This document shows, piece after piece, positions 14,391 through 36,110 of a stretch of 64,000 nt of DNA. The DNA lies in assembly GCF_011046735.1 (NCBI RefSeq), contig NZ_CP049258.1:4730001-4794000 (forward strand), in the 5' to 3' direction. This DNA comes from Nordella sp. HKS 07. Its GTDB lineage: Bacteria; Pseudomonadota; Alphaproteobacteria; Rhizobiales; Aestuariivirgaceae. Under the pieces are notes generated by a model. It was not told the DNA's origin and ran no database searches. It saw nothing but the letters and a program-made list of their open reading frames with translations. Position 1 is the stretch's first letter. The number at the start of each line of letters is the position of its first letter. Both the position numbers and the translations under genes were made by a program.

Positions 14391-14435
14391 TCTGGACCCA
14401 TGAAAGCGCCAGTTCTGGGCTGCGCTCAGGTCCAG
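14391..14435. promoter_or_regulatory. Putative MocR/TauR-type operator upstream of xsc
   Basis: TCTGGACCCAT at 14391-14401 and an inverted half-site GGTCCAG at 14429-14435 lie 49-92 bases upstream of the xsc start. The same 11-base word occurs at 35990-36000 beside the MocR gene. On the xsc strand the distal site reads CTGGACCTGA, which resembles the TauR half-site as I recall it. The role is inferred. Confidence 0.55.
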
Positions 14436-14606
14436 AGGGCCCGCAACCCAAAGAAAGCTGTATCCTCGACCCGCCGTGCGATGCCTTGCATGGAAGAACT
14501 GCGCGGATCGCTGCAGAAGGTCACGCTCCAGATTACCCGGCCTTCGAGCACCTCTCCTATCCTGTGGACTGAAGAGGAGGAAAGGCCCCAGCGCTCCAAG
14601 CAGGAT

Positions 14607-15371
14607 TCACGACGCGAGGCTACGCTCAACATCCATGCGATAGCGGCGCATCCAGTCGAGGCTCGTCTCGTCGGAGAGCTTCGCCACACCGGGCTTCACC
14701 TTGTCGGCATCGGGCGCCGAAATGCCGAGTGCTGCGCAGATGCGTGTCAGTGTGGCGGCGGGATCGGCCGACAGGGTTTCATAGCCGATGCGCAGCGGCG
14801 TGATGTCCTGCTCCGCGAACCAGCTGTTCCAGGCCACATCATAATCTTCGAGCTCGGCGAGCTCCCGCCTGATCCGCTCGAAGTCATATTCGGGGTCTTT
14901 CGGCGGCGACAGCCTCTCGATCTCCGTGCCGTCAGGTGCGACATGCCAGAGGCCGGTCTGCTCCGCTTTGATCAGCGAAACAGCCTGGGCGAGCTTGTTC
15001 TCACGTGAGAGATGCAGATAGAGGATTTTGCCGAACGCCTTCTCGAGCCGCGCTCGGTCTGACGGCAGGCCGGGATGGATCTGATCCAGGATGGCCGAAA
15101 GCTCGCCCAGATTCTCCCACATCAGGCGAAGGCCGGAGATATCCGTGCCGCCCTTGCCGACTTTGATGGCTGCATTCAGATATACGAGATTGTAGTCGTG
15201 CTCACTCATCGTGTCCGGGCTCGGCAGATTCCATTCCCCGGCCCACCAGGCGAGGAACTTGCGCCCATAGAAGGAATCGGGATTGCCGGCCCGTTTTGTC
15301 GAGGCGAGAAGATCACACAGCAGCGTGCTGCCAGTGCGCGGCGTGCCGCAGATGATGTAGGCGTCGAACAT
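14607..15371 (-). CDS. Stf0-type sulfotransferase
   Basis: 254 residues from ATG 15371, one base after the cupin gene's stop; a longer reading to 15413 would overlap that gene. The N-terminal DAYIICGTPRTGSTLLCDLL is the PAPS 5'-phosphosulfate-binding loop. The following DSFYGRKF, KILYLHLSRENKLAQAVSL (3'-phosphate-binding Arg/Ser type) and WNSWF blocks match Stf0 (trehalose 2-sulfotransferase) family proteins. It would transfer sulfate from PAPS to a carbohydrate or small alcohol in the cytoplasm. It is the last gene of an apparent lrgA-lrgB-cupin-sulfotransferase operon. The acceptor cannot be read from the sequence. Confidence 0.82.
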   Translation of the reverse strand: MFDAYIICGTPRTGSTLLCDLLASTKRAGNPDSFYGRKFLAWWAGEWNLPSPDTMSEHDYNLVYLNAAIKVGKGGTDISGLRLMWENLGELSAILDQIHPGLPSDRARLEKAFGKILYLHLSRENKLAQAVSLIKAEQTGLWHVAPDGTEIERLSPPKDPEYDFERIRRELAELEDYDVAWNSWFAEQDITPLRIGYETLSADPAATLTRICAALGISAPDADKVKPGVAKLSDETSLDWMRRYRMDVERSLAS

Positions 15372-15372
15372 T

Positions 15373-15654
15373 CTATTTGAGCTCGATCTCGATGAAGGCA
15401 TATTCAGTGTCATTGGCGTTGATCACATCGTGCTCGACACCTTCGCTGCGGAAATAGGGCACGGCCTTCTTCATGTCGGCAAAGCTCTCGCCATCCTTGG
15501 TCAGGAGCTTCACTTTGCCGTCCATCAAGGGCACCACGACATAGTCATGGCCGTGGCGGTGCCAGCCGGTATTGGCGCCGGGCGCGAAGCGGTATTCGGT
15601 GACGATCACCTTGTCGTTCTCGATGTGCTTGATGGCTTTTGCGGTACCGGACAT
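15373..15654 (-). CDS. Small cupin-domain protein
   Basis: 93 residues forming one cupin beta-barrel. The first motif is PGANTGWHRHGHDYVVVPLMDG, seen here in two parts (GWHRHGHDYV gives the His ligands; G of MDG closes it); the second, weaker motif is VEHDVINA. A bound metal through the His residues is likely. Most one-domain cupins of this size are of unknown or accessory function. It starts 14 bases after lrgB and ends one base before the sulfotransferase gene. Confidence 0.8.
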   Translation of the reverse strand: MSGTAKAIKHIENDKVIVTEYRFAPGANTGWHRHGHDYVVVPLMDGKVKLLTKDGESFADMKKAVPYFRSEGVEHDVINANDTEYAFIEIELK

Positions 15655-15668
15655 GGATGTCTCCTTTT

Positions 15669-16388
15669 CTATTTCAAGAACCAGTAGAGGATGAGGGGTA
15701 ATATGAGCGCGGTCATGACCAAGTTGAGCGCCATGGCGATGCCGGCGAATGTGCCCGCCACTTCATCGACGACGAAGGCGCGCGCCGTGCCGATGCCATG
15801 GGCGGCGAGTCCGGCGGCGAAGCCGCGCGCCGCATAATCCTTGAGGCCGAGCACGTTCATGAGCGGCGTCACGATGATGGCGCCGAGGAGGCCGGTAGTG
15901 ACGACGAGCACGGCGGTGAGCGCCGGCTGCCCGCCAAATTGCTCCGATATGCCCATGGCGACGCCCGCTGTAACCGATTTGGGCGCGAGCGAGACAAGCA
16001 CCGGGTCGGGAACGCCGAAGAGTGCCGCGACGGCGAGCGCCGAAACCGCCGCCGTCACCGAGCCTGCGACGAGCGCTGCCGCCATCGGCAGGATATTCGC
16101 CTTCACCTTGTCGAGATTGCGATAGAGCGGCACGGCGATGGCGACGATGGCGGGCCCGAGCAGGAAATGGACGAACTGCGCACCCTGGAAATAGGTGGCG
16201 AATGATGTGCCGGTAATAATGAGGATGGCGCCCAGGGCGATTATAGAGATCAGCACCGGATTGACCGCCGGATGCCGGCCCGAGAGGCGCGCGATGCGGT
16301 CGGCGGCGATCCAGACGAGCAGCGTCACCGTCAGCCACAACAGTGGCGTCGAGGACAGATAGACCCAGAGATCGAAGGCCGGCGTCAT
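15669..16388 (-). CDS. lrgB: LrgB/CidB-family membrane protein
   Basis: 239 residues, about 6-7 transmembrane segments. LrgB-family features are FLLGPAIVAIAVPLYRN, LAPKSVTAGVAMGISEQFGG (about 20 residues, the family's best-conserved block) and AHGIGTARAF. It works with LrgA/CidA; the pair is known from control of murein hydrolase activity and overflow metabolism and from plastid glycolate/pyruvate-type transport. Its start overlaps the lrgA stop by 4 bases (ATGA). Confidence 0.92.
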   Translation of the reverse strand: MTPAFDLWVYLSSTPLLWLTVTLLVWIAADRIARLSGRHPAVNPVLISIIALGAILIITGTSFATYFQGAQFVHFLLGPAIVAIAVPLYRNLDKVKANILPMAAALVAGSVTAAVSALAVAALFGVPDPVLVSLAPKSVTAGVAMGISEQFGGQPALTAVLVVTTGLLGAIIVTPLMNVLGLKDYAARGFAAGLAAHGIGTARAFVVDEVAGTFAGIAMALNLVMTALILPLILYWFLK

Positions 16389-16768
16389 GATGCGGGCCGG
16401 GCCGATTGCCAGCGCTTCATCCAGGTGAAGACCAGGGCAGTGACGGCCAAAGACAGCGCCGTCGAGACGAGCAGCGCCAGGAAGAGGACGGGTCCATAGG
16501 AGTTGATGAGGCCCAGATGATTGATCACGCCGACGCCCGCCGGCACGAAGAGCAAGGAGAGATGCTGCAATAGTCCACCGGTTGCGCGACCAAGCGCCGT
16601 GTCGTTGATCGTGTGGGCGTCGAAGGCAGCGAATCTCTGCGCGATGAGAAGGCCGGCGAAGAGCAGCAGGAGCCCAACCACTGGTCCGGGCATAGGCAAG
16701 CCGAAGCCATGCGAGAGAATCTCACCGGCAAGCTGGCAGAGAAGAAGCAGAGCAAAGGCCTCGATCAT
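16385..16768 (-). CDS. lrgA: LrgA/CidA-family membrane protein
   Basis: 127 residues with four predicted transmembrane segments; the family motif GLPMPGPVVGLLLLF is followed by LSLLFVPAGVGVINH. It is a holin-like partner of LrgB and the first gene of a leftward operon with lrgB, a cupin gene and a sulfotransferase gene. No adjacent LytR/LysR regulator is present. The only oddity is the linkage to a sulfotransferase. Confidence 0.92.
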   Translation of the reverse strand: MIEAFALLLLCQLAGEILSHGFGLPMPGPVVGLLLLFAGLLIAQRFAAFDAHTINDTALGRATGGLLQHLSLLFVPAGVGVINHLGLINSYGPVLFLALLVSTALSLAVTALVFTWMKRWQSARPAS

Positions 16769-16858
16769 CAGGGCAAGCTACAGCATTGAACCTGAAAGTG
16801 CGAAGGGGTTTCGGGCAATTCGAGGCGCATAAGAGGGCTGCAATCTCCAGGTGCGACT

Positions 16859-17938: not shown

Positions 17939-18330
17939 GGGCGTGCCTCCCTCGCAGGGCAACGCGCCGCGATGGAAGCTGTTCCCGGTGGGAATACTCG
18001 CTCGCGGGGGCTGATCTGACCAAGACAATGCACGCAAGGGTAGTCTTCGGTCGGATCGACTGACAACAGGCTGACGGAGGATATTCATCAAAATGGTTGC
18101 AGAAGTGGGTAAAAATTCAATTTAAGAATGTTTGTAACGCTCTTAGATTTTGCTTCCAGAAAAAGACAACCTATTATTGCAGTTGCGAATCATACCCTGG
18201 GTAATTTTATTTCTCGCCCTTAAGCAACTTAAGATTGTTGAGCCCGTCGGTATTGTTCACTGGTCTGTAGGCTTACTCCGCGTGGTTTCGAGCCTGACTA
18301 AGTGATCCCGGAAGACATCTCCAGGCGGAG
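17939..18330. other. AT-rich divergent intergenic region
   Basis: 392 bases without a gene between the leftward reductase gene and the rightward adhesin gene. The part 18090-18245 is clearly more AT-rich than its surroundings and probably holds the promoters. CTTAAG occurs twice (18219-18224, 18228-18233), forming a small TTAAG-caa-CTTAA inverted repeat that could bind a regulator. No clear -35/-10 pair can be named with confidence. Confidence 0.5.
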
Positions 18331-21300
18331 ATGCCCCGGACCGACAGGACATGGGACGGCATGACAAAAAAGCCGGGTGCAACGGACCGCCGTTGGCTGG
18401 CCGCGCGCCAGCTGGGTTCGTTTTCTATTTTGGCGACCATGCTGGCCTCGCTCGCCGCCGCGCTTCTATCATCGCCCGCCAGCGCCGCCAACACAGGCAG
18501 CAGCGGCTCGCCCGCGGCATGCAGCTCCCTCCCGGCCCCGGGGACCTTTCAAAGCATTCAAGGGACTTCCGACGACATATTCCTCTCGGGCTTCACCGCG
18601 GGGGCGACGGTGACGGTGGGCTATCGCAACAATGACGGCAGCAGCAGCTACACCGCCACCGTGACGAGAATTGCGGGACCGGCCATCACCCCGACCAGTG
18701 CCACCCAAGCATTGGGCAACAATGCGGCCGGCTCCACGACCTTTTCATATGTGAGCGGCACCGGCACCCTGCAGCTCCGGGTGGGCACGAGCAACGCGGT
18801 CAGCGGCCCGGTTCCGGAATATAGTGTCAGCTGCGCGCCCTCCCTGGCGGGACTGACTCTCAGTAAGACGACCCTGTCGGTGAATGAAGCCGACGCGACC
18901 AGCGATACCTTGACGGTGCGGCTGTCGTCGCAGCCGACCGCGAATGTGACCGTGGCGGTTTCCGCGAGCGATGCCACAGAAGGCGCGATCACCACCCCGA
19001 CATCGCTGACCTTCACCACCGTCAACTGGAACACGCCGCAGAATGTGACACTGCAGGCCGTCAATGACGACGTTGATGACGGCAATATCGCTTATAACGT
19101 CGTGCTCGATCCCGGAGGCTCGGACCCGGTCTACAATTTGATCGCGAACACAACCGCGAGCGCGACGACGGTCGATGACGACACGGCGGGACTGACGCTC
19201 AGCAAGACGACTTTGTCGGTGAATGAAACCGGCACGACCAGCGACACTTTGACGGTCAGGCTGTCGTCGCAACCCACCGCCGACGTCACCGTGACGGTTT
19301 CCGCGAGCGATGTCACGGAAGGCGCGATCACCACCCCGACGACCCTGACCTTCACCACCGCCAACTGGAATACCCCGCAGAATATCACGCTGCAGGCGGT
19401 CAATGACGATATCGATGACGGCAATATCACCTACAATGTCGTGCTCAATCCCGCGAGCTCGGACACGGTCTACAATGCGCTGGCGAATTCGACCGCGAGC
19501 GCCACGACGGTCGACGACGACACGGCGGGCCTGACCCTCAGCAAGACGTTCTTGTCGGTGAACGAAGCGGGCGCGACCAGCGATACCTTGACCGTGAGGC
19601 TGGCGTCGCAGCCGACCGCCAACATCACTGTGGCGCTTACCTCCAGCGACACCACGGAAGGCACGATCACCACCGCGACGCCGCTGACCTTCACCATCGC
19701 CAACTGGAGCACCCCGCAGAATGTCACACTGCAGGCGGTGAATGATGGTCTTGATGACGGCGACATCGCCTACAATGTCGTGCTCAATCCCGGTGGGGAC
19801 GGGGTCTATAATGCGCTCGCGAACACAAATGTGAGCGCCACGACGGTCGATGACGACACCGCGGGATTGACACTCAGCAAGTCGACCTTGTCCGTCAATG
19901 AGAGCGGCACGACCTCCGATACTTTGACCGTCCGATTGTCGTCACAGCCGACCGCCACTGTGACGGTCGCGGTGTCGTCTGGCGATACGACGGAAGGCAC
20001 GATCACCAGCGCGGCGTCCTTGACCTTCACCGCCGCCAATTGGAGCACCGCGCAGAATGTCACGCTGCGGGCCGTCAATGACAGCCTGGATGACGGCGAC
20101 ATTTCCTATTTTGTCGTGCTCAATCCCGCGAGCTCGGACGCCATTTACAGTGCTATGGCGAACACGAATGTGAGCGCGGCGACGATCGATGACGACACGG
20201 CGGGCCTGACGCTGAGCAAGTCGACCTTGTCCGTCAACGAAGCGGGCACGACCAGCGACACCTTGACCGTGAGGCTGTCGTCGCAGCCGACCGCCAGTGT
20301 GACGGTCGCGGTCACCTCCGGCGATACGACCGAGGGTACGATCACCAGCTCGGCGTCCCTGACCTTCACCACCGTCAACTGGAACACCGCGCAGAATGTC
20401 ACGCTGCGGGCCGTCAATGATAATCTTGATGACGGCGATATCTCCTATGCCGTCATGCTCGATTCCGCGAGCACGGATGCGATCTTTAGCGCCCTGGCGA
20501 ACACGAATGTAAGCGCCACCACGGTAGATGACGATACACGTGGCGTGACGGTGTCTCCCACCACGGTGTCGGCAACGGAAGGCGGCGCCACCGGCAGCTT
20601 CACGGTGGTGCTCACCTCGCAGCCAACCGCGAATGTGACGATATCGCTCACGTCCGACGCCCAGTGCACGATTTCGGCTGCCAGCCTGACCTTCACAACG
20701 GTGAACTGGAACTCGGTGCAAACGGTGACGGTGACGGCGGTCAACGACAACGTGGTCGAAGGCGCGCATATCTGCTCCGTGACGACGGACGATGCCGCTG
20801 GCGGTGATTATGCCGGTTTCGTCGTCGCCGACGTGACCGCCAATATCACCGACAATGATACGGCGACGGCGAGTATCACCAAGGCGACGGACGGCGACGG
20901 CGCCGAGCCTGGCGACGCGGGCGAGTTCACAGTGACGCTGTCGGCGCCGAGCGCGGCGAACACCGTAGTAAGTTATTCGGTAGGCGGCAGTGCGCAGGCC
21001 GGCAGCGACTACACGACACTCGCCGGATCGGTGACGGTTCTGGCCGGCAGCACGACGGCTGTCATTCCGGTGACTTTGCTCGACGATGGGCTGGTCGAAG
21101 GCACCGAGATGGTGAGCGTGAGCCTGACCGGCACCTCGAATCCGCTGATCTCGGCCTCGGGCTCGGCTTCCCTCAATATCGCCGACGATGACTCCGCGAC
21201 AGCAAGCATCGCCAAGTCGACGGGCGGCGATGGCGCCGAGCCTGGCGACGCCGGCGAGTTCACCGTGATGCTGTCTGCGCCGAGCTCGACCGACACGACG

Positions 21301-24300
21301 GTCAGCTACACGGTCGGTGGGACGGCGAGTGCCGGCAGCGATTACACGACGCTCGCCGGCTCGGTGACGGTTCCGGCTGGCAGCACGACGGCTGTCATCC
21401 CGGTAGAGGTGGCCGACGATGCGGTGGTCGAAGGAACGAAGACAGTAACCATTAATCTGACCGGAACATCCAATCCCGTTATCCAGGCCTTGGGCACGGC
21501 CACGCTCGATATTGCCGATGATGACAGGGCGACGGCGAGTATTGCCAAACCGACGGATGGCGATGGCGCCGAGCCCGATGATGATGGTGAGTTCACCGTG
21601 ACACTCTCGGCGCCAAGCGCGACTGACACCGTCGCGAGCTATTCTGTGACCGGCAGCGCGCAAGCCGGCAGTGATTACACGCCGCTCGCCGGATCGGTCA
21701 CGATTCCGGCTGGCAGCACGACAGCCGCCATTCCGGTGGCTGTGGTCGACGATGCGGTGGTCGAAGGCACCGAGACGGTGACCCTTGAACTGACTGGAAC
21801 GTCCAATCCGTCGATCCAGGCATCGGGCTCGGCCACGCTTGAAATTGCCGATGATGACACGGCGGCGGCGAGTATCACCAAGCCGGCGGGCGGTGACGGT
21901 GCCGAACCCGGCGATGATGGCGAGTTCACCCTCACGCTGTCGGCGCCGAGCTCGAGCGACACGACGGTCAGCTACTTGGTGAGCGGCACGGCAAACGCCG
22001 GCAGTGACTATACGGGGCTTGCAGGATCGGTGACGGTTCCGGCGGGCAGCACGACGGCTGTCATACCGCTGGATGTAATCGACGATGCGGTGGTCGAAGG
22101 CGTGGAAACGGTGACCATCGATCTGACTGGGACGTCGAATCCGTCCATCCAGGCCTCGGGCTCGGCCACGCTTGATATTGCCGATGATGACACGGCGGCG
22201 GCGAGTATCACAAAGCCGGCGGGCGGTGACGGTGCCGAACCCGGCGATGATGGCGAGTTCACTCTCACGCTGTCGGCGCCGAGCTCGAGCGACACGACGG
22301 TCAGCTACTTGGTGAGCGGCACGGCAAACGCCGGCAGCGATTATACGGGGCTCTCCGGATCCATGACTGTTCCGGCGGGCAGCACGACGGCTGTCATCCC
22401 GGTGGAAGTGATCGACGATGCGGTCGTCGAAGGCACCGAGACGGTGACTATCGATCTGACCGGAACGTCAAATCCTGTTATCCAGGCCTCGGGCTCGGCC
22501 GCACTCGATCTTGCCGATGACGACTCGGCGACCGCGAGCTTCACCAGAACGGCGGGCGACGATGGCGCCGAGCCTGGCGACGATGGAGAGATCACCGTGG
22601 TGCTGTCGGCGCCGAGCTCGACCGATACGACGATCACCTACTTGGTGGGCGGCACCGCGAGTGCCGGCGGCGATTATGCGGCGCTTGCCGGATCGGTAAC
22701 GGTGCCGGCGGGGAGCATGACGGCTATCGTGCCGGTCAATGTGGTCGACGATGTGATCGTCGAAGGCACGGAGACGGTGATAGTGAGCCTCACCGGAACC
22801 TCGAACCCGTCCATCCAGGCCTCGGGCTCGGCCACGCTTGATATTACCGATGACGACACGGCGACGGCGAGCATAGCCAAGTCGACGAATGGGGATGCGG
22901 CGGAACCCGGTGATGACGGCGAGTTTACTCTATTTCTGTCGGCGCCGAGCTCGACCGACACGACGGTCGACTATTCCGCGGGCGGCGCGGCGGCTGCCGG
23001 CAGCGATTACACGTCGCTTCCCGGATCGGTGGCCGTGCCGGCGGGCAGCACGACGGCTTCTATACAAGTCGCGGTACTGGACGATGTGACTGTCGAAGGC
23101 AGCGAGACGGTCGCTATCAGCTTAAACGGGACGTCGAATCCGTCCATCGGCGCCGCCGGTTCGGCCACTCTCGATATGCTTGATGACGACAATGCCGCAG
23201 TGACGGTGACAGAGAGCGGCGGTTCGACAAGCGTCGGCGAAGGCGGAATTATCGACAGCTTCACCATCGTCCTGGACGCGCAGCCGACGGCGGACGTGAC
23301 GATTTCGCTGAGCGCGGATGCGCAATGCACGCTCTCGACCGGAAGCGTGACTTTTACCCCAGTCAGCTGGAACGTAGCGCAGAGCGTGACCGTGACGGCC
23401 GTGGATGATCCGACGGTCGAGGGAGCGCATAGCTGCGCGATCACCACCGGCGATGCGGCGGGCGACGGCTATACAGGCGTGACGGTCGATGACGTGACCG
23501 CCAGCGTGACCGACAATGACATTGCGGGTGTGACGATCGCGGGATCGCCAGTTTCGATTACCGAAGGCGGGCCGAGCGGCAGCTTTACGGTGGTGTTGAC
23601 GGCGCAGCCGACGGCCGATGTGACGATCTCGCTGAGCCCGGATGCGCAATGTGCGCTCTCGGCCGGAAGCGTGACCTTTACCCCGATCAGCTGGAATGTG
23701 GGGCAGAGCGTCACCGTGACGGCGGTGGATGACCCGACGGTCGAGGGCGCCCATAGCTGCGCGATCACCACCGGCGATGCGGCGGGTGACGGCTATACGG
23801 GCGTGGCGGTCGATGACGTGACCGCAAATGTGGCCGACAATGACGTGGCGGGCGTGACGATCGCGGGATCGCCAGTGGCGATCGCGGAGGGGGGCGTCAC
23901 GGGTTCTTTCAACATGGTCCTCGACGCACAGCCAACGGCCGATGTGACGATCTCGCTGAACCCGGATGTGCAATGTACGCTCTCGGCCGGAAGCGTGACC
24001 TTTACCCCGGTCAGCTGGAACGTGACGCAAAGCGTGACCGTGACGGCAGTGGATGATCCGACGGTCGAGGGAGCGCACAGCTGTGCGATCACCACCGGCG
24101 ATGCGACGGGTGACGGTTATACGGGCGTGGCGGTCGATGACGTGACCGCAAATGTGGCCGATAATGACGTGGCGGGCGTGACGGTCGCGGGATCACCGGT
24201 CTCGATCACCGAAGGCGGGCCGGGCAGCAGCTTCACGGTCACGCTGACGGCGCAGCCGACGGCCGATGTGACGATCTCGCTGAGCCCGGATGCGCAATGT

Positions 24301-25128
24301 ACGCTCTCGGCCGGAAGCGTGACCTTTACCCCGGTCAGCTGGAACGTGACGCAAAGCGTGACCGTGACGGCAGTGGATGATCCGACCGTCGAGGGCGCCC
24401 ATAGCTGCGCGATCACCACCGGTGATGCCGCGGGCGATGGTTATACAGGCGTGGCGGTCGATGACGTGACCGCCAATGTGACAGACAATGATATTGCGGC
24501 CGTGACGGTCGCGGGATCGCCGGTCCCAATTACTGAAGGCGGATCGGGTGGCAACTTCACGCTCGCGCTGACGGCGCAGCCGACGGCGGATGTGACGATA
24601 TCGCTGAGCGCGGATGCGAAATGCACGCTCTCGGATAGTAGCTTGACCTTCACCCCGGCGAACTGGAGCGCGGCGCAGAGCGTCACCGTGACGGCGGTGG
24701 ATGATACCATAGCCGAGGGACCCCATAGCTGCGCGATTACCACCGGCGATGCGGCGGGCGATGGCTATACGGGCGTGGTGGTCGATGACGTGACCGCCAA
24801 TGTGACCGACAACGACACAGCGGGCGTGATTGTTGCGGGATCGCCCGTGGCAGTCACCGAGGGCGGGGCGAGCGGCAGCTTTGCGATCGCGTTGACGGCC
24901 CAGCCGACGGCGGACGTGACGATCTCGCTGAGCCCGGACAGTCAATGCACGCTCTCAGCCGGCAGCCTGACCTTTACGCCGTCCAATTGGAGTGCGGCGC
25001 AGAGCGTCACCGTGACCGCGGTGAATGACACGGTGGCAGAGGGAACGCATAGCTGCGCGATCACCACCGGGGACGCGGTGGGGAGGGCTTTACCGGCGTC
25101 ACGGTGGCCGATGTCACTGCCACGGTGA
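18331..25128 (+). CDS. Giant repeat adhesin / autotransporter, N-terminal part (frameshifted)
   Basis: 2265 residues before an early stop; with one added base near 25080 the frame joins the next reading frame into about 2735 residues. The start is 18331 or, more likely for signal-peptide length, 18361. A long signal peptide ends SSPASA. A domain of about 110 residues is followed by tandem Ig-like/Calx-beta-type repeats: five of about 113 residues from 18847, one of a third type at 20539, seven of 111 residues at 20863-23193, then the third type (108 residues) from 23194. Asp-rich DDD motifs at repeat borders suggest calcium binding. It would form a long secreted stalk anchored by the C-terminal barrel. 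Unlinked to neighbours; a large promoter region precedes it. Confidence 0.85.
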   Translation: MPRTDRTWDGMTKKPGATDRRWLAARQLGSFSILATMLASLAAALLSSPASAANTGSSGSPAACSSLPAPGTFQSIQGTSDDIFLSGFTAGATVTVGYRNNDGSSSYTATVTRIAGPAITPTSATQALGNNAAGSTTFSYVSGTGTLQLRVGTSNAVSGPVPEYSVSCAPSLAGLTLSKTTLSVNEADATSDTLTVRLSSQPTANVTVAVSASDATEGAITTPTSLTFTTVNWNTPQNVTLQAVNDDVDDGNIAYNVVLDPGGSDPVYNLIANTTASATTVDDDTAGLTLSKTTLSVNETGTTSDTLTVRLSSQPTADVTVTVSASDVTEGAITTPTTLTFTTANWNTPQNITLQAVNDDIDDGNITYNVVLNPASSDTVYNALANSTASATTVDDDTAGLTLSKTFLSVNEAGATSDTLTVRLASQPTANITVALTSSDTTEGTITTATPLTFTIANWSTPQNVTLQAVNDGLDDGDIAYNVVLNPGGDGVYNALANTNVSATTVDDDTAGLTLSKSTLSVNESGTTSDTLTVRLSSQPTATVTVAVSSGDTTEGTITSAASLTFTAANWSTAQNVTLRAVNDSLDDGDISYFVVLNPASSDAIYSAMANTNVSAATIDDDTAGLTLSKSTLSVNEAGTTSDTLTVRLSSQPTASVTVAVTSGDTTEGTITSSASLTFTTVNWNTAQNVTLRAVNDNLDDGDISYAVMLDSASTDAIFSALANTNVSATTVDDDTRGVTVSPTTVSATEGGATGSFTVVLTSQPTANVTISLTSDAQCTISAASLTFTTVNWNSVQTVTVTAVNDNVVEGAHICSVTTDDAAGGDYAGFVVADVTANITDNDTATASITKATDGDGAEPGDAGEFTVTLSAPSAANTVVSYSVGGSAQAGSDYTTLAGSVTVLAGSTTAVIPVTLLDDGLVEGTEMVSVSLTGTSNPLISASGSASLNIADDDSATASIAKSTGGDGAEPGDAGEFTVMLSAPSSTDTTVSYTVGGTASAGSDYTTLAGSVTVPAGSTTAVIPVEVADDAVVEGTKTVTINLTGTSNPVIQALGTATLDIADDDRATASIAKPTDGDGAEPDDDGEFTVTLSAPSATDTVASYSVTGSAQAGSDYTPLAGSVTIPAGSTTAAIPVAVVDDAVVEGTETVTLELTGTSNPSIQASGSATLEIADDDTAAASITKPAGGDGAEPGDDGEFTLTLSAPSSSDTTVSYLVSGTANAGSDYTGLAGSVTVPAGSTTAVIPLDVIDDAVVEGVETVTIDLTGTSNPSIQASGSATLDIADDDTAAASITKPAGGDGAEPGDDGEFTLTLSAPSSSDTTVSYLVSGTANAGSDYTGLSGSMTVPAGSTTAVIPVEVIDDAVVEGTETVTIDLTGTSNPVIQASGSAALDLADDDSATASFTRTAGDDGAEPGDDGEITVVLSAPSSTDTTITYLVGGTASAGGDYAALAGSVTVPAGSMTAIVPVNVVDDVIVEGTETVIVSLTGTSNPSIQASGSATLDITDDDTATASIAKSTNGDAAEPGDDGEFTLFLSAPSSTDTTVDYSAGGAAAAGSDYTSLPGSVAVPAGSTTASIQVAVLDDVTVEGSETVAISLNGTSNPSIGAAGSATLDMLDDDNAAVTVTESGGSTSVGEGGIIDSFTIVLDAQPTADVTISLSADAQCTLSTGSVTFTPVSWNVAQSVTVTAVDDPTVEGAHSCAITTGDAAGDGYTGVTVDDVTASVTDNDIAGVTIAGSPVSITEGGPSGSFTVVLTAQPTADVTISLSPDAQCALSAGSVTFTPISWNVGQSVTVTAVDDPTVEGAHSCAITTGDAAGDGYTGVAVDDVTANVADNDVAGVTIAGSPVAIAEGGVTGSFNMVLDAQPTADVTISLNPDVQCTLSAGSVTFTPVSWNVTQSVTVTAVDDPTVEGAHSCAITTGDATGDGYTGVAVDDVTANVADNDVAGVTVAGSPVSITEGGPGSSFTVTLTAQPTADVTISLSPDAQCTLSAGSVTFTPVSWNVTQSVTVTAVDDPTVEGAHSCAITTGDAAGDGYTGVAVDDVTANVTDNDIAAVTVAGSPVPITEGGSGGNFTLALTAQPTADVTISLSADAKCTLSDSSLTFTPANWSAAQSVTVTAVDDTIAEGPHSCAITTGDAAGDGYTGVVVDDVTANVTDNDTAGVIVAGSPVAVTEGGASGSFAIALTAQPTADVTISLSPDSQCTLSAGSLTFTPSNWSAAQSVTVTAVNDTVAEGTHSCAITTGDAVGRALPASRWPMSLPR
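18847..20538 (+). repeat. Adhesin repeat type A, five copies of 336-339 bases
   Basis: In-frame repeats starting near 18847, 19186, 19525, 19861 and 20200. Each begins AGLTLSKxTLSVNE and ends SATTVDDDT or a close variant. The unit is related to the type C unit (both carry a SLTFTxxNW core) but is slightly longer and lacks its Cys residues. Confidence 0.85.
20863..23193 (+). repeat. Adhesin repeat type B (Calx-beta-like), seven copies of exactly 333 bases
   Basis: Copies start at 20863, 21196, 21529, 21862, 22195, 22528 and 22861. The core reads GDGAEPGDxGEFTVTLSAPS, SDYTxLAGSVTVPAGSTTA and VVEGTETVTIxLTGTSNP. The fourth and fifth copies are almost identical in DNA over long stretches, indicating recent duplication. 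Confidence 0.9.
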
Positions 25129-25480
25129 CCGACGACGACACGGCGGGTGTGATGGTTGAAGGCTCGCCTGTGGCCGTCGCTGAAGGCGGGGCAACCGGAT
25201 CATTCACGATGGTCCTGATGGCGCAGCCGGCGGCGGCTGTGGCTATCCTGCTCGGTCCTGATGCTCAGTGCACGCTCTCGACCAGCGGTCTCAACTTCAC
25301 CGCCGCCAATTGGAGCACGCCGCAAAGCGTGACGGTGACGGCGGTCGACGACACGGCGGACGAAGGAGCGCATAGCTGCGCGATCACCACCGGCGCCGCG
25401 AGCTCGGCCGACCCCAATTTCGACGGGCTCGCGGTTGCCGACGTGACGGTCAGCGTGACGGACAATGACGGTGACACGGC
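23194..25480 (+). repeat. Adhesin repeat type C, seven copies of about 324 bases
   Basis: Units begin near 23194, 23524, 23848, 24172, 24496, 24820 and 25144, with core AGVTxAGSPVxITEGG, TADVTISLSPDAQCTLSAGS and HSCAITTGDAAGDGYTG. Each carries two Cys, unusual for an exported alphaproteobacterial adhesin. One more unit of this type stands alone at 20539. The frameshift falls in the sixth copy. Confidence 0.88.
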
Positions 25481-26537
25481 GCCGGACGAGGCCGTGGTCC
25501 GCAGGACCTTCGAAAGCCAAACTCGCGATTTCATGGCCGCTCGCATGCAGCTCCTCGCGCGCCTCGGCCCGCGCACGCACCGAATGGCGAATCGCGCCCA
25601 GGGGGCGTTCGAGACGGGCAGCAATGGCTTCAACATCCATGGCGAGAACGGAAATCTGGTGGGCGATTTCGCGCTCAACAGCGGCGCCATGCAGCGGATC
25701 ATCGCGGGCGACTTCCTGAACGTAACGCCGACATCGGACGTGGTCGAGGCGAGCGGCCCGGTCAATGCCTGGATGGAAGGCCAGTTCGCCTACTACAATT
25801 CCGGCGACGATGACGAGGGCAATCCCGAAGGCAACTATTTCGTCGGCTATGCGGGCGTCGACGTCAGGGTCCATGACGGCGTGGTCATTGGCATCATGGG
25901 CCAGCTCGATTGGCTTGGTGAAGGCAGCGATACGGGCAGGACCGACGGAGATGGATGGATGATCGGGCCGTATCTGTCGGCCGAACTCGCGCCGAACCTG
26001 TTTCTCGATCTGCGCGGCATGTACGGGCGAAGCATCAATAGCTCGACCCAGAACATAATGGACGTCGAATACAAGGGCGACTTTGACACCGAGCGGCTGC
26101 TCATGGAGATTGTGCTGTCCGGGCGTTTCGACTACGGAAGCACGGTCCTGACACCTGATCTGCAGTTCATCTATATCTGGGACGAGCAGCAGGACTATTC
26201 CGTGTCGGACGGCGTCGATGTGGTCGATGTGGACGGGCAACTCGTCAGGCTGGGGCAACTCTCATCCGGCCTCAAGGTGGCGCCGAAGATGGACGCCGAC
26301 GGAACGGAGATCTGGCCATATCTCCGAGGCCGACTGTTCTGGGACTTCGACAACCCGGGCACGCTGGAAATCGATGGCGGCACGGTATCTGCGGATGAGG
26401 TCCGCGCGGCCGTCTCGCTCGGCGTCGACGCCGGCACGCAAGACACGCAGATCAACATCGAAGTTACGTATGATGGGCTGTTCACCGACGACTACGAGTC
26501 GATCGGCGGCCGGCTGGCCATCGGACATCGCTTCTAA
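25104..26537 (+). CDS. Adhesin C-terminal part: last repeat and autotransporter beta-barrel
   Basis: The frame is the direct continuation of the upstream gene: codons from 25083 read EGFTGVTVADVT, the expected rest of the sixth type C repeat. It ends that repeat, holds a seventh (to about 25480), then a helical linker (TRDFMAARMQLLARLG). A C-terminal domain of about 310 residues follows, rich in alternating aromatic/hydrophobic strands and ending GRLAIGHRF with a terminal Phe, as outer-membrane autotransporter barrels do. Read alone it has no signal peptide and only a GTG start, so it is unlikely to be an independent gene. Either the gene is inactivated or the sequence has a one-base error in the G run at 25080-25083. 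Confidence 0.8.
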   Translation: MADVTATVTDDDTAGVMVEGSPVAVAEGGATGSFTMVLMAQPAAAVAILLGPDAQCTLSTSGLNFTAANWSTPQSVTVTAVDDTADEGAHSCAITTGAASSADPNFDGLAVADVTVSVTDNDGDTAPDEAVVRRTFESQTRDFMAARMQLLARLGPRTHRMANRAQGAFETGSNGFNIHGENGNLVGDFALNSGAMQRIIAGDFLNVTPTSDVVEASGPVNAWMEGQFAYYNSGDDDEGNPEGNYFVGYAGVDVRVHDGVVIGIMGQLDWLGEGSDTGRTDGDGWMIGPYLSAELAPNLFLDLRGMYGRSINSSTQNIMDVEYKGDFDTERLLMEIVLSGRFDYGSTVLTPDLQFIYIWDEQQDYSVSDGVDVVDVDGQLVRLGQLSSGLKVAPKMDADGTEIWPYLRGRLFWDFDNPGTLEIDGGTVSADEVRAAVSLGVDAGTQDTQINIEVTYDGLFTDDYESIGGRLAIGHRF

Positions 26538-26605: not shown

Positions 26606-27724
26606 TTAGGCTGCGAGTGCTTTCTCGGCCGGGACATATTCATAGCCGAGATCGTCGGCGACGGCTTTGTAGGTGACCTTGCCCTTGCAGACATTGAGGC
26701 CGGCGCGCAGATGGTGGTCTTCGAGCAACGCCTGCTTGTAGCCCTTGTTGGCGATGGCGAGGCCGAAGGGCAGGGTGACGTTGTTGAGCGCATAGGTCGA
26801 GGTGCGCGCGACGCCGCCCGGCATGTTGGCGACGCAATAATGGATGACACCGTCGACGACATAGGTCGGATCGGCATGCGTCGTCGGTTTCGAGGTCTCG
26901 GCGCAACCGCCCTGGTCGATGGCGACATCGACGAGAACCGAGCCGTTCTTCCAGTTCTTCAGCATCTTGCGGGTGACGAGCTTCGGCGCCGCCGCCCCCG
27001 GGATCAGCACGCCGCCGACGATGAGATCGGCGGTGGCGCATTCATCCTCGATCGCGCCTTGCGTCGAATAGAGCGTCTTGAGCTGCGTCCCGAAGCGGGC
27101 GACGAGCTCTTCCATGCGGTCGGTGCTCTTCTCGAGCACGGTGACATCGGCGCCGAGGCCCAGCGCCATCGCCGCGGCATTGGTGCCGACGACGCCGCCG
27201 CCGAGGATCACGACCTTGGCTGGCGCCACGCCCGGCACGCCGCCGAGCAGGATGCCCGAGCCGCCCTGCGCCTTTTCCAGGCAATGGGCGCCCGACTGGA
27301 TCGACATGCGACCGGCCACTTGCGACATCGGCGCAAGCAGCGGCAGGCCGCCGCGCGAATTGGTGACCGTCTCATAGGCGATGCACACGGCGCCCGAGGC
27401 GATGAGGTCTTTTGTCTGTTCCGGATCTGGAGCCAGATGCAGATAGGTGTAGAGAATCTGGCCATCGCGCAGCATCTTGCGTTCGCCAGCCTGCGGTTCC
27501 TTCACCTTCACGATCATCTCGGCCTTGGCAAAGATTTCTTCGGCGGTCGGGATGATCTGCGCGCCCGCCGCCTTGTAGTCCTCGTCCGACGCTCCGATGC
27601 CGAGGCCAGCACCGCTCTGGACCCACAGCTTGTGACCGTGGCGTACGGCCTCACGAACCGAGAGTGGCGTCATGCCTACCCGGTATTCGTGATTCTTGAT
27701 CTCTTTCGGAACGCCAATCAGCAT
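26606..27724 (-). CDS. ald: Alanine dehydrogenase
   Basis: 372 residues, full length. The N-terminus [20 protein letters not shown] is the family hallmark. Next come VKVKEPQ, a YLHLAPD block, IAYETV, and the NAD-binding Rossmann loop [19 protein letters not shown]. It reversibly deaminates L-alanine to pyruvate and ammonium with NAD+. In taurine or pyridoxamine catabolism via pyruvate-dependent transaminases it would recycle alanine to pyruvate; that link is plausible here because xsc and the pyridoxamine transaminase are in the window, but ald stands alone with its own terminator. Confidence 0.95.
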
Positions 27725-27812
27725 GATGGAAGAACTCCCAAGGGATGCGGTTCTTGATGCCGCGATCCAGATTAATGGTTGTCGGAATCAAACAATTCGC
27801 CAGTTGCCCCTT

Positions 27813-27925
27813 AGATCACGATGAGTTTGGATTGATTCAATCCAAACTCATAAACGTGATCGGTTCTCATATGTTAGCGCGGGATTTATGCGAAAAACCG
27901 GTATCCACTTTTCGCATCCCGCGCT
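27813..27925. repeat. Dispersed palindromic repeat R1, copy 2
   Basis: Begins AGATCACGATGAGTTTGG, contains the TTGGATTGATTCAATCCAA hairpin and ends CGCATCCCGCGCT. It is in inverse orientation to copy 1 at 5257-5370 and in the same orientation as copy 3 at 55636-55746. Confidence 0.85.
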
Positions 27926-29143: not shown

Positions 29144-29206
29144 GCTCCTGCCCATATCCCAGTTCGCGATCGATGGGAACTCGGGCGGCAGGAGGGGAGG
29201 CACGGC

Positions 29207-30260: not shown

Positions 30261-31655
30261 ATGGCCAGCCTGATGAAGCCGGATCCCAGTTTCTATCCGT
30301 CGCCCCGCATGGCGATGAAGGCAGCACCCGAGAGCCTGGCCTATGTCGTCGCCTTCGATCCCAACCGCAAGGTGCCCGATGCGCTGGCGGTTGTCGATGT
30401 CGATCCGAAATCCAAAAGCTATTCGAAGATCGTCGGGTCGGTGGCGATGCCGAATGTGGGCGACGAGCTGCATCATTTCGGCTGGAATGCCTGCTCGTCC
30501 TGTCTCTGCCCCAATGCGCCCCATCCCCATAGTGAACGGCGCTATCTCGTGGTGCCGGGCCTGCGCTCATCGCGTATCCATATTCTCGACACCAAGCCCA
30601 ATCGCAAGAAGCCGAAGATCGTCAAGGTGATCGAGCCTGGGGAGGTCGCCGAACGCGCCGGCTATACGCGTCCCCATACGATCCATTGCGGTCCGGACGG
30701 CATCTATGTCGCCGCGCTCGGCAATGAGGAAGGCAAGGCACCCGGCGGCATCTTCCTCATGGATCACGAAACCTTCGCCATACGAGGACGCTGGGAAGTA
30801 GATCGCGGGCCGCAGCAATTGGCCTATGACGCATGGTGGCATCTCGGACACGACACGATGGTCACCAGCGAGTGGGGCACGCCCGACATGTTCGAGGACG
30901 GCCTGATCCCCGAAATCCTGCTCGGCGCGAAATATGGCCGGCGCTTGCATTTCTGGGATCTGCACAAGCGCAAGCATCTGCAGACCATCGATTTCGGCGA
31001 GGAGTACCAACTCGTCTTCGAATTGCGCCCGGCGCATGATCCGACCAAGGCCTATGGCTTCGTCAATTGCGTCGTCTCGCTCAAGGATCTCTCCTCGTCG
31101 ATCTGGGTCTGGCACCGCGACGGCGACAAATGGGCGGTCACCAAGGTGATCGACATTCCCGCCGAACCGGCCGATCCCGAGAAGTTGCCGCCGATGCTCA
31201 AGGGGTTCGGCGCCGTGCCGCCGCTGGTCACCGACATTGACCTGTCGATGGATGACCGCTTCCTTTATGTGTCCTGCTGGGGAACCGGTGATCTGCACCA
31301 ATATGACGTGTCGGATCCCTTCAAGCCCAAGCTCACCGGCAAGGTGCGCATCGGCGGCATTGTCGCGCGCGCCGGCCATCCCGCCCATAGCGGCCCCTTG
31401 AGCGGTGGCCCGCAAATGGTCGAGATCAGCCGGGACGGAAAGCGGGTCTATTTTACCAACTCGCTCTATGGCGCCATCGACCCGCAGTTCTATCCGGAGG
31501 GCATGGAGGGCTGGATGGTGAAGCTCGATGCGGTGCCTGAGGGCGGCATCGCCTTCGATCCGAAATTCTTCGTGCAATGGCCGGCTCCGCATCGGCCGCA
31601 TCAGGTCAGGCTCGAGGGCGGCGACTGCTCGTCGGATTCCTACTGCTATCCGTGA
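30261..31655 (+). CDS. Selenium-binding protein 56 / methanethiol oxidase family
   Basis: 464 residues, the usual length of the SBP56 family, a beta-propeller. Hallmarks are CSSCLC near residue 80, PGLRSSRIHILDT, TIHCGPDGIY, HFWDLHKRKHLQTIDFG and a late GGPQMVEISRDGKRVYFTNS (20 residues). Family members oxidise methanethiol to formaldehyde, H2S and H2O2, with copper. The bacterial enzyme first described, in Hyphomicrobium, is exported, as I recall; this one begins MASLMKPDPSFYP with no signal peptide, so it is predicted cytoplasmic like the eukaryotic form. GGAAGGAGA precedes the ATG. No scoI/mauG-type partner is adjacent; the next gene encodes a small membrane protein. Confidence 0.88.
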   Translation: MASLMKPDPSFYPSPRMAMKAAPESLAYVVAFDPNRKVPDALAVVDVDPKSKSYSKIVGSVAMPNVGDELHHFGWNACSSCLCPNAPHPHSERRYLVVPGLRSSRIHILDTKPNRKKPKIVKVIEPGEVAERAGYTRPHTIHCGPDGIYVAALGNEEGKAPGGIFLMDHETFAIRGRWEVDRGPQQLAYDAWWHLGHDTMVTSEWGTPDMFEDGLIPEILLGAKYGRRLHFWDLHKRKHLQTIDFGEEYQLVFELRPAHDPTKAYGFVNCVVSLKDLSSSIWVWHRDGDKWAVTKVIDIPAEPADPEKLPPMLKGFGAVPPLVTDIDLSMDDRFLYVSCWGTGDLHQYDVSDPFKPKLTGKVRIGGIVARAGHPAHSGPLSGGPQMVEISRDGKRVYFTNSLYGAIDPQFYPEGMEGWMVKLDAVPEGGIAFDPKFFVQWPAPHRPHQVRLEGGDCSSDSYCYP

Positions 31656-31700
31656 TGCTCTGGACCGCAATGGCTTTGGAAGAAATCGTCTGTCAATGTA

Positions 31701-31793
31701 CCCTTATGCTGAGGTGGCCGCGAAGCGGCCCTCGAAGCACACCCTTCGAGGCTCTCCCGGCGCAAGGCCGGGGTAGCGCCCCAGGGTGAGGGT
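31701..31793. repeat. Dispersed palindromic repeat R3, copy 2
   Basis: Runs from CCCTTATGCTGAGG to CCCAGGGTGAGGG with inner CGAAGCGGCCCTCGAAG and CCTTCGAGG blocks; inverse orientation to copy 1. It lies between the SBP56 gene and the membrane-protein gene. Confidence 0.8.
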
Positions 31794-31814
31794 AGTCGAA
31801 CACATTGTGCTCTG

Positions 31815-32441: not shown

Positions 32442-32453
32442 GCGTTATTGCCT

Positions 32454-33470: not shown

Positions 33471-33633
33471 TTGCTCATCTGTCCGAGTGCACTAGTCAAT
33501 ATGCATGGCTGTGGCGCGTTCCGCGGCCCTGCCGGGGGGCAGGCTAGCATGAAGTGAAGGCGAAGTATGCCGGTCGCTATCGAGAGTGCGCGCATTTCTG
33601 CAGCGCCCGAGAACCACGGCATCGTACAGGGAG

Positions 33634-34464
33634 ATGACAAGCGTGAACGGATATCGCGAATATTTCGTCGATCTTGGCGATGGCAATGGACTGTCCTGCG
33701 CGGAGCGCGGCAGTCCCGATGGACCGCCCCTTATTCTCGTCCATGGCTATGGCGATTCATGGCGATCCTACCGGCCGGTCATCGAGGAGCTTCCGCCCAC
33801 CATCAGAGCCGTCGCAATTTCCCTGCGCGGTCATGGGGACTCGTCAAAGCCCGAGTCCCGCTATGACATGGCGGAGTTTACCGGCGACATTGTCGGCGCC
33901 ATGGACAGGCTCGCAATAGAACGGGCTGTGATCGTCGGCCATTCGATGGGCAGCCTCGTTGCTCAGTGTATTGCCATGGATCATCCCGAACGCGTCACCG
34001 GTCTCGTCCTTATCGGCAGCTTGCCCACCGTCGCGGATCATCCCGGCGTTGAAGAAATGTGGCGCGACTCCGTCGCCGGACTGGAGGATCCAGTCGATCC
34101 CGAGTTCGTTCGCAGCTTTCAGGAGAGCACCCTGGCGCAGCCAGTACCGGGTACTTTCTTCGATGGCATCCTGTTCGAAAGCGCCAAAGTGCCCGCCCGG
34201 GTCTGGCGGGGCGCTCTGCGCTCGATGCTCAGTGAGGATCGCAGCGACAGACTGCACCGCATCGTGGCGCCGACCCTGATCGTGTGGGGTGACCGGGACA
34301 ATATATGCAGCCGGGAACACCAGGATCTTCTACTGCGTGGTATCCCCCGGGCCCGCCTGTCAGTTTACGAAGGTGCCGGACACGGTCCGCATTGGGAGAA
34401 TCCCAAGCCGATCGCCGCTGAGATTATTGCCCTGCATGGCGACACCCTGCGCGAGACGGTCTGA
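33634..34464 (+). CDS. Alpha/beta-fold hydrolase
   Basis: About 276 residues. The oxyanion motif LVHGYGDSW is near residue 36; the nucleophile elbow VGHSMGS contains the Ser; the acid is in WGDRDNIC and the His in GAGHGPHWENP. It belongs to the large haloperoxidase/ester hydrolase group, so the substrate cannot be named. The start is uncertain: ATG 33634 has AGGGAG directly against it, GTG 33643 has the same site at good spacing, and ATG 33586 would add 16 residues. Divergent from an AraC regulator gene. Confidence 0.85.
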   Translation: MTSVNGYREYFVDLGDGNGLSCAERGSPDGPPLILVHGYGDSWRSYRPVIEELPPTIRAVAISLRGHGDSSKPESRYDMAEFTGDIVGAMDRLAIERAVIVGHSMGSLVAQCIAMDHPERVTGLVLIGSLPTVADHPGVEEMWRDSVAGLEDPVDPEFVRSFQESTLAQPVPGTFFDGILFESAKVPARVWRGALRSMLSEDRSDRLHRIVAPTLIVWGDRDNICSREHQDLLLRGIPRARLSVYEGAGHGPHWENPKPIAAEIIALHGDTLRETV

Positions 34465-34496
34465 GCACTGTCCATGAATCAAGCTGGCACAACCAT

Positions 34497-35981
34497 TCAG
34501 GCCTGGCGCGCCGCGTCGGCGATGGTGTCGGCGAGGAGCTTGATGCCTGGCTCGATCTTCTTTTCGTCGATGGATGAGAAGGCGAGCCGGAAGAAATTGT
34601 CGGGTGCGTTCTCGGCGCCGAAATGAATGCGTCCCGGCTCGATGACGAGGCTGCGCGCCGCTGCCTCGCGCGCCAGCAGCTCGCTGTCGAGCCCACGCGG
34701 ACCTTCGACCCAGAAGCTGGTCCCGCCGAAAGAGGGGATGCGAGCCGAATCCGGCAGATAGGTCTGCAGCGCCGCGCCCATGATTTCCCAGCGGTTGCGA
34801 TACGCTTTGTGCAGGCGGCGGATCAGTGTGTCGTGATGGCCGAGCGAGAGAAAAAGCGCGGCGGTGCGCTGGTTGTTGTTGGGCGCATGGCGCACCATCA
34901 GCCGGCGCAACGCACGCGCTTCCTCGACAAATTCCTTGGGCCCGACCAGGAATCCGAGACGCAGGCCCGGGAACAGCGTCTTCGACAGCGAGCCGACATA
35001 GATGACACGGCCTTCGTCATCGAGTGATTTGAGCGCGGGGCAGGGCTCGTTCACGTAATTCGTCTCGAATTCGTAATCGTCCTCAATGATCACGAAATTA
35101 TGCTTGGAGGCCAGTTTGAGGAGATCGAGCCGGCGGGTCAGCGGCATGGTCGCGGTGGTCGGGAACTGATGGCTGGGCGTCACGAAGACGAGATCTGAGG
35201 CGGCCACATCTTCGTTCAGCACGAGGCCGGCTTCATCGACCGGCACCAATGCCACCTTGCTGGTCTTGAGCCGGAAGATGTTGCGCATGTCGGGAAAGCC
35301 GGGCTCCTCCATGGCCACGCGGCTCTTCTCGTCGATGAGCAGGCTGGTGATGAGATAGAGCGCGTTCTGGGCCCCGAGCGTGATGAGGATCTCGTCGTCG
35401 CTCGCCATGATGCCGCGGCGCGGCAGGATGCGGCGGCGTATCTGTTCGACGAGGAGGGGGTCGTCGAAGGCCCAGGTGTCGTTGGTCCAGGTGCCGAGCC
35501 ACTTCTTGCCGAGCGCCTGGCGCGCGCAGTCTCGCCATTCGGCGAGCGGAAAGAGATTGTGGTCAACCTGCCCATAGATGAAGGGGTAGGTGTAGCTTTG
35601 CCAGTCGAGCGGCTTGAAGATGTTGGCCTGGGCGGCCGGATGCTTGAGAAGGCGCGCCTTCCATTGCGGGTCGGTGCCAGTCTCAGCCGGCGGACCCGGC
35701 GGCGCCTTGGCCGGGCGTATCGCGGTCTCGAGCGCCTTGTCGGCGACAAAGTAGCCAGACCTCTCGCGCGCGATCAGATAGCTGTCATCAAGCAGGCCCT
35801 GATAGGCAAGGACCACCGTGTTGCGCGAGACGCCGAGGCTCTTGGCCATCTTGCGGGTGGAGGGGATGGGTTCGTCGCGCGTGAGCTGTCCGTCAAGAAT
35901 GGCGGCGACAAGGGCCTCGCGAATCTGCGTCTGCAGACTCGAGTGGTTGTGGCGGCGGATATGCACAAGCCAATCGCGCAA
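34497..35981 (-). CDS. MocR-subfamily (GntR HTH + aminotransferase) transcriptional regulator, possibly TauR-like
   Basis: 494 residues. A GntR-type winged helix (about 15-80: EPIPSTRKMAKSLGVSRNTV) is joined by a linker to a class I aminotransferase-like domain (about 125-490) with LGAQNALYL, FVTPSHQFPT, IIEDDYEFE and the PLP Lys in SLSKTLFPGLRLGFLVGP. MocR proteins use PLP as effector sensor; members include GabR, PdxR and the taurine regulator TauR. It is divergent from the soeABC-like genes, and CTGGACC-type boxes lie between them and also upstream of xsc. Control of sulfonate/sulfite genes is therefore inferred. A PdxR-like B6 role is the main alternative. Confidence 0.88.
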   Translation of the reverse strand: MRDWLVHIRRHNHSSLQTQIREALVAAILDGQLTRDEPIPSTRKMAKSLGVSRNTVVLAYQGLLDDSYLIARERSGYFVADKALETAIRPAKAPPGPPAETGTDPQWKARLLKHPAAQANIFKPLDWQSYTYPFIYGQVDHNLFPLAEWRDCARQALGKKWLGTWTNDTWAFDDPLLVEQIRRRILPRRGIMASDDEILITLGAQNALYLITSLLIDEKSRVAMEEPGFPDMRNIFRLKTSKVALVPVDEAGLVLNEDVAASDLVFVTPSHQFPTTATMPLTRRLDLLKLASKHNFVIIEDDYEFETNYVNEPCPALKSLDDEGRVIYVGSLSKTLFPGLRLGFLVGPKEFVEEARALRRLMVRHAPNNNQRTAALFLSLGHHDTLIRRLHKAYRNRWEIMGAALQTYLPDSARIPSFGGTSFWVEGPRGLDSELLAREAAARSLVIEPGRIHFGAENAPDNFFRLAFSSIDEKKIEPGIKLLADTIADAARQA

Positions 35982-35989
35982 CGGGCACC

Positions 35990-36110
35990 TCTGGACCCAT
36001 CATAGGGCCAAAAATCCCAACAACAATGTCAATGATTTATGGCGATGCAGGCGGGCTGGTTCCTATTGTCACAGGTGTCTGTCCCTATGGTCCAGGCTGG
36101 TCCCATCATG
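35990..36110. promoter_or_regulatory. Putative MocR operator region between regulator and soeA
   Basis: CTGGACCCATCAT at 35991-36003 and CTGGTCCCATCAT at 36097-36109 form a direct repeat with one mismatch in 13. CTATGGTCCAGG at 36085-36096 is an inverted half-site directly abutting the second. The first site is 10 bases from the MocR start, the last about 26 bases from the soeA start. The 11-base word TCTGGACCCAT is shared with the xsc upstream region. Confidence 0.6.

Follow-up and report, generated by a model that had tools for sequence, protein, structure and literature searches.

Genes and predicted operators

The window analyzed here is a stretch of 64,000 nucleotides from the genome of Nordella sp. 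HKS 07 (NZ_CP049258.1, positions 4,730,001 to 4,794,000), and it contains two loci predicted to release and to oxidize sulfite, respectively (Table 1). One is a tight run of three genes, xsc, a major facilitator superfamily (MFS) transporter gene and ackA, in which ackA overlaps the MFS gene by 4 bp (spacing of the open reading frames, ORFs). The other is mocR with its divergent partner soeABC, where a molybdopterin subunit, an iron-sulfur subunit and a DmsC/NrfD-type anchor are encoded in one operon. The name SoeABC is based on this architecture and on the context with xsc, and the product is a predicted sulfite dehydrogenase. The initial annotation connected the two loci through an 11-base word, TCTGGACCCAT, and a MocR regulon, and the sequence search recovered the word at both proposed positions, 14391-14401 and 35990-36000. 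The proposed MocR regulon linking xsc and soeABC is supported, with a revised operator: the two places are probably operators of a single TauR-type MocR regulator, encoded by this mocR, through which xsc-mfs-ackA and soeABC would be co-controlled. The earlier inclusion of ackA in the regulon agrees with its place as the third gene of the xsc run.

Table 1. Genes and predicted regulatory features of the two loci.
Feature	Position	Strand	Basis or remark
ackA, acetate kinase family, third gene of the xsc run	10047..11078	-	PF00871 E 1.3e-88; TIGR00016 296.4 bits, cut-off 293.4
MFS transporter, DHA2/EmrB-like, second gene of the xsc run	11075..12559	-	TIGR00711 E 5.2e-63, below cut-off
xsc, sulfoacetaldehyde acetyltransferase	12583..14343	-	TIGR03457 940.6 bits, cut-off 676.4
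-10-like hexamer TAGGGA (inferred)	14377..14382	-	9 nt after dyad
xsc operator dyad ACTGGCGCTTTCATGGGTCCAGA (predicted)	14391..14413	-	holds the 11-base word; position weight matrix (PWM) 23.1 bits, second in window; in 5/5 genus genomes
Upstream direct half-site CTGGACC	14429..14435	-	23 bp before the first box of the dyad
ald, alanine dehydrogenase	26606..27724	-	PF01262/PF05222; frequent neighbor of mocR and xsc in relatives
mocR, GntR + aminotransferase-fold regulator, TTG start	34497..35981	-	PF00392, PF00155
mocR/soeA operator dyad TTTGGCCCTATGATGGGTCCAGA (predicted)	35990..36012	-	holds the 11-base word; PWM 30.1 bits, best in window
Candidate soeA operator, CTGGTTC (36056-36062), 23 bp, CTGTCCCTATGGTCCAG (36079-36095)	36056..36095	+	shortened dyad
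Weak half-site CTGGTCCCATCAT	36097..36109	+	4.9 bits
soeA, molybdopterin catalytic subunit, SoeABC-type sulfite dehydrogenase	36145..38970	+	PhsA/DmsA-type matches all below cut-offs; orthologues
soeB, iron-sulfur subunit	38967..39725	+	PF13247
soeC, DmsC-type membrane anchor	39729..40679	+	PF04976 E 1.2e-18

The shared word is half of a longer dyad

The 11-base word is weak evidence when taken alone, because the window has four copies with at most one mismatch where 1.23 would be expected, and the same number was reached by 5 of 100 shuffled sequences. In the whole genome (7.18 Mb, one contig) four exact copies are present, and the two outside these loci lie inside long reading frames resembling ccoN and an AEC-type transporter gene (names assigned by eye). 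A near-copy at 27616 inside ald, against which the initial annotation had itself cautioned, was confirmed; it was rejected as an operator, being coding and absent from the 20 best PWM matches. The distance between the word and xsc had been given as 42 bases and is 47, counted from the xsc start at 14343. The word was also rejected as the unit of recognition, because it constitutes one half of an imperfect dyad of 21-23 bp at each locus (14391-14413 and 35990-36012). Each predicted operator is an inverted pair of CTGGNCC-type boxes of about 21 bp, and the operator is a dyad of approximately 22 bp with an upstream box rather than the 11-mer.

A 21-bp motif was learned by expectation maximization (EM) with random starts from 25 mocR promoters of other genera; these were obtained from the upstream DNA of 30 MocR loci by removing four from the own genus and one (G016) that has no upstream DNA. 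The consensus, TCTGGCCCTATCATGGGTCCA, is again an imperfect dyad. The PWM scan of the window ranked the mocR/soeA dyad first and the xsc dyad second, with the next match at 8.8 bits, and both top sites also scored on the opposite strand. Without mismatches, the pattern CTGGNNCYWTNRTRGKNCCA matches the genome at these two sites and nowhere else; allowing one mismatch adds one further place, and a control pattern read backward has eight matches at up to one mismatch. A sequence model built from 24 exact sites of other genera was run against the five genomes of the genus (E ≤ 10), and its 14 rows correspond to 10 places, each of them at mocR/soeA or xsc; since 150 first-look candidates were scored per genome, weak sites may have escaped. 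With the sequence model R2, the mocR/soeA dyad has a genome-wide e-value of 0.0016. The extended sites are far beyond chance.

At xsc, two direct boxes, CTGGACC and CTGGCGC, are 23 bp apart, which is the direct-repeat arrangement of TauR-type operators, and the second box deviates from the TauR consensus at one base at least. The inverted half-sites described earlier were recovered at 14429-14435 (minus strand) and, near soeA, at 36089-36095 (minus strand). CTGGACC occurs 16 times in the window against 7.9 expected, and this excess was set aside. A YTGG box 22 or 23 bp upstream of the sense-strand site near the start is present in 12 of 17 xsc/soeA promoters; counted by cluster, the box is found in 5/10 vs 0-2/10 for control pairs of offsets. 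The upstream half-site and the dyad thereby often form a -> -> <- array, described as the commonest structure of MocR motifs (PMC5320631). In the xsc/soeA promoters of relatives, a hexamer starting with TA follows the dyad by 8-10 nt (by eye).

Upstream of xsc, the end of a truncated ORF (..ARRVEDTAFFGLRALWT*) lies at 14426-14560. It is complete in Taklimakanibacter lacteus (L137, 18059-18865) and resembles a 2OG-Fe(II) oxygenase by eye only. A gene for an Stf0-like sulfotransferase (14607-15413, below the family cut-off) is located beside the xsc run, with matching DNA in T. lacteus. The exporter-like MFS gene between xsc and ackA is, as a guess, a candidate sulfite or sulfonate transporter.

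The mocR/soeA dyad sits about 150 bp from soeA, and the -10-like element of mocR, TATGAT (35999-36004), lies inside it. The candidate array on the soeA side ends about 50 bp from soeA, and its part CCTATGGT is unchanged across all five genus genomes. The direct half-site proposed at 36097-36109 does match 35991-36003 at 12 of 13 bases; it is weak and was rejected as a conserved half-site, being clearly changed in two genus genomes (G001, G003) and changed at one base each in two others (G002, G004). This stretch is better read as a spacer with a -10-like CATCAT (36104-36109), judging from the sequence.

Conservation in related genomes

Conservation upstream of xsc and soeA orthologues had been suggested as a check, and sites were found at both genes. 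Upstream DNA is available for 29 of 30 xsc loci (counting that of the own genome), and 15 of these hold a site scoring beyond all 200 Markov-resampled sequences. Thirteen of the 15 sites have their 5' edge 67-74 bases ahead of the protein match, equivalent to 64-72 bases ahead of the start codon, because in the approximately 47%-identical xsc type the match starts directly behind the ATG. The own genus contributes five of the 13. The 13 sites precede xsc genes 93-97% and 46-49% identical to that of the window, and the operator thus tracks function and not gene copy. The two xsc types, about 47% identical to each other (L046-L053 vs L054-L075), are swapped in relatives, and in genomes that have the operator its position is mostly unchanged.

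For soeA, 29 of 30 loci have upstream DNA, and a site was found in 10, with mocR divergently adjacent in all 10. Four genomes (G008, G019, G027, G030) have a single dyad 66-68 bp from soeA, with the upstream box and the spacing to a -10-like element seen at xsc. Elsewhere the operator lies between mocR and soeA or between mocR and tpa. The gene divergent from mocR is frequently of the tpa type in Rhodospirillales and others, and ald and xsc follow mocR downstream there; the name tpa-type in relatives is based on the class III aminotransferase fold and the context.

A MocR orthologue is present in 28 of 36 sampled genomes of the family, own genome included; T. lacteus is among the named relatives. 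Sites were found in 28/33 genomes with the orthologue vs 2/27 without (E ≤ 0.5; Fisher p 1.4e-9), a tally in which some genomes also supplied training sites and in which the two weak matches of G010 are not at mocR. The site of G042, a genome without the orthologue (E 0.02), is probably due to chance, and its locus has two ORFs of at least 150 aa. Matches away from mocR, xsc and ald were seen in G040, twice in G010 and once in G024 (E 0.42-0.45). Eighty named loci (1.157 Mb) contain 69 sites of at least 14 bits. Of these, 63 are no more than 350 bp away from the start of mocR (54), tpa (22), soeA (16), ald (5) or xsc (4), where a shared site enters the count of every gene concerned. Because these loci were picked for mocR, this count is no unbiased test, while the genome-wide searches are unbiased.

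The MocR protein

The protein has the GntR-type helix-turn-helix and the aminotransferase-like domain of MocR regulators. It is 46% identical to Sinorhizobium meliloti TauR; the TauR proteins of S. meliloti and Rhodobacter capsulatus are reported to be 49% identical to each other (PMC4254191). In named relatives, the arrangements mocR-ald-xsc and tpa-mocR place the gene beside taurine dissimilation genes. Operator and context suggest that this MocR works like TauR. By descent it may be TauR or a sister group: in a tree that includes the TauR proteins of S. meliloti and Cereibacter sphaeroides but not that of R. capsulatus, the fork of 35 rows to which it belongs is weakly supported (86/83).

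The NCBIfam model for PdxR, NF052282, also matches the protein, a label disfavored by operator and context; such labels may hide TauR-like proteins elsewhere. The genome has 13 further matches to MocR, three of them near full length (L004-L006), and the loci of these three have weak sites only, at most 11.2 bits.

The region between the two loci

No operator was found in the ald promoter of the window by the PWM scan or the box search. The promoter holds a dispersed, roughly 91-bp repeat (27812-27902) whose interior shows inverted symmetry; this repeat is also present at 5278-5370 and occupies no fewer than 40 places in the genome (40 of 157 candidates scored). Two relatives in the genus have CTGG boxes at the position of this repeat. 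Much of the 21.6 kb distance is explained by an insert at 18331-26537, between an FMN reductase-like gene and ald, which is absent in T. lacteus and carries a 2265-aa ORF and an ORF with an autotransporter domain. Near soeABC, an SBP56 family gene (30261-31655), which we take to be methanethiol oxidase-like, and a betaine-homocysteine methyltransferase-like gene (41494-42591) were recognized.

Evaluation of alternative explanations

Several observations weigh against the assignment of both places to one TauR-type regulator. No dyad was found in 14 of 29 xsc upstream regions, including those of two 77%-identical xsc genes (G037, G051), nor in 19 of 29 soeA upstream regions. The half-site at 14429-14435 overlaps the last codons (..LRALWT*) of the truncated ORF, the end of which is CTGGACC TGA; its conservation within the genus is therefore confounded and may be coding. 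The upstream boxes of G009, G007 and the soeA promoters occur without that ORF end (by eye). The array on the soeA side is 4 bp shorter than the other dyads, and it is a weaker candidate because it is absent from the 20 best PWM matches and its last box is altered in two of five genus genomes (G002, G004). The tree places the protein apart from the clade formed by S. meliloti and C. sphaeroides TauR (100/99), and it scores 356 bits with NF052282, above the cut-off of 320. A tpa gene was not found at the locus, and no operator is located near the best Tpa homologue (49%) or at the others of the six best loci among 20 matches. An operator at tpa or at taurine uptake genes was not found in this genome, where the genome-wide search returned two sites only. 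Taurine is thus not established as the signal, since there is no operator near the best Tpa homologue and the ald promoter holds the repeat.

The alternative that retains most, and is still unlikely, is that MocR controls xsc and not soeABC, with the dyad at 35990 serving mocR only and soeA responding to sulfite by other means. The distance of this dyad from soeA and the 19 soeA genes at which none was found speak for such a separation, as do the sulfite-oxidizing enzymes SorT and SorAB, described as switched on by sulfite via extracytoplasmic function (ECF) sigma factors (PMC6527743). Against it stand the four genomes in which the single dyad near soeA has the upstream box and the -10-like spacing seen at xsc, and the second array in the window, close to soeA.

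It is improbable that the sites are operators of another regulator, such as a MocR paralogue. The further MocR matches in the genome would provide candidates, and binding by this MocR is inferred; however, the sites adjoin this very mocR in many relatives and occur with its orthologue, and the loci of the three near full-length paralogues have weak sites only. Even less probable is the idea that MocR acts on vitamin B6 genes as a PdxR, with the xsc site incidental. The NF052282 score favors it, but the genome-wide searches, in which B6 genes were not inspected singly, found sites at mocR/soeA and xsc only, apart from the one-mismatch match elsewhere, and the orthologues adjoin tpa, ald, xsc and soeA. 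Chance or coding constraint, suggested by the frequency of the 11-mer with one mismatch and by the xsc box at the ORF end, can hardly explain the shared word and is already refuted for the dyad, which at xsc lies outside the ORF, is identical in four of five genus genomes with two changes in the fifth, recurs before the approximately 47%-identical xsc type and belongs to a pattern with two exact matches in 7.18 Mb; the copy at 36097-36109 may be due to chance.

Proposed regulation

Control of both loci by one TauR-type MocR can be described as follows. The sites, their conservation, their spacing and their genome-wide uniqueness come from the sequence, and MocR binding, activation or repression and the inducer are proposed on this basis. 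Most likely, MocR with pyridoxal 5'-phosphate (PLP) occupies the dyads. The xsc array would be located just upstream of the -10-like hexamer and overlap the -35 zone, where a MocR dimer would activate xsc-mfs-ackA. The dyad next to mocR covers its TATGAT element, and mocR would in this way repress itself. An extra direct box 22-23 bp upstream would complete the -> -> <- array at xsc, and probably at soeA too. On the other side of the mocR intergenic region, soeABC would be activated with the second, shortened array near soeA. A C2 sulfonate signal would then turn on Xsc for release of sulfite, AckA for use of acetyl phosphate and SoeABC for oxidation of sulfite together. A single regulator and a single conserved DNA switch appear to serve this soil bacterium both for releasing toxic sulfite from a sulfonate and for oxidizing it.

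A bolder model is offered tentatively and may well not hold: MocR could represent a sister group of TauR sensing a C2-sulfonate other than taurine, and the system could be a feed-forward regulon for sulfite protection, working through one two-way operator whose divergent partner, tpa or soeABC, is exchanged by lineage, so that the oxidase is induced before sulfite builds up and not as a reaction to it.

Comparison with known systems

In the literature searched, no statement was found of a MocR regulator controlling soeABC under that name. The alphaproteobacterial enzymes SorT and SorAB studied so far are described as induced by sulfite via ECF sigma factors, SorT of S. meliloti among them (PMC6527743). 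If the proposed regulon is true, a sulfite dehydrogenase is placed under the regulator of the pathway that releases sulfite, a feed-forward design unlike that of SorT and SorAB. The operator is resolved in enough detail to be tested directly by gel shift.

The xsc/soeABC regulon is an extension of the known taurine-control system and not a new kind. TauR binds direct repeats of CTGGACYTAA (PMC5320631, quoting Wiethaus 2008), and the TauR regulons predicted in 2016 include xsc, ackA or pta and, in some Rhodobacterales, bisC/hybA/dmsC, which were then proposed to accept electrons from taurine dehydrogenase (Suvorova and Rodionov 2016, PMC5320631). A simpler reading is that bisC/hybA/dmsC are probably SoeABC. 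The present system shares with the TauR regulons the MocR architecture, the CTGGACYTA-type box, direct boxes 22-23 bp apart, xsc with ackA, and bisC/hybA/dmsC as known from some Rhodobacterales. It differs in several respects: the dyad is completed by a third box in inverted orientation, mocR is divergent from soeABC, and 21.6 kb separate xsc from this locus; neither tpa nor tauABC was found under the operator, and this MocR is outside the S. meliloti TauR clade. In the TauR promoters of S. meliloti, C. sphaeroides and Paracoccus, CTGGA boxes are spaced by 22 bp, and a third, inverted box is not evident (by eye).

S. meliloti TauR, which acts at PtauA, is likewise described as a MocR activator of a sulfonate pathway (PMC4254191), and its boxes have nearly the same spacing; its gene has tauABC, the genes of taurine dehydrogenase, xsc and pta as neighbors. 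In Ruegeria pomeroyi, soeC, soeB, soeA, pta and tauR are described in SPO3557-3562 (PMC4334477), so that soeABC and tauR belong to one sulfonate cluster as well; that cluster has pta rather than ackA, and its genes are adjacent, whereas those of Nordella sp. HKS 07 are split over 21.6 kb.

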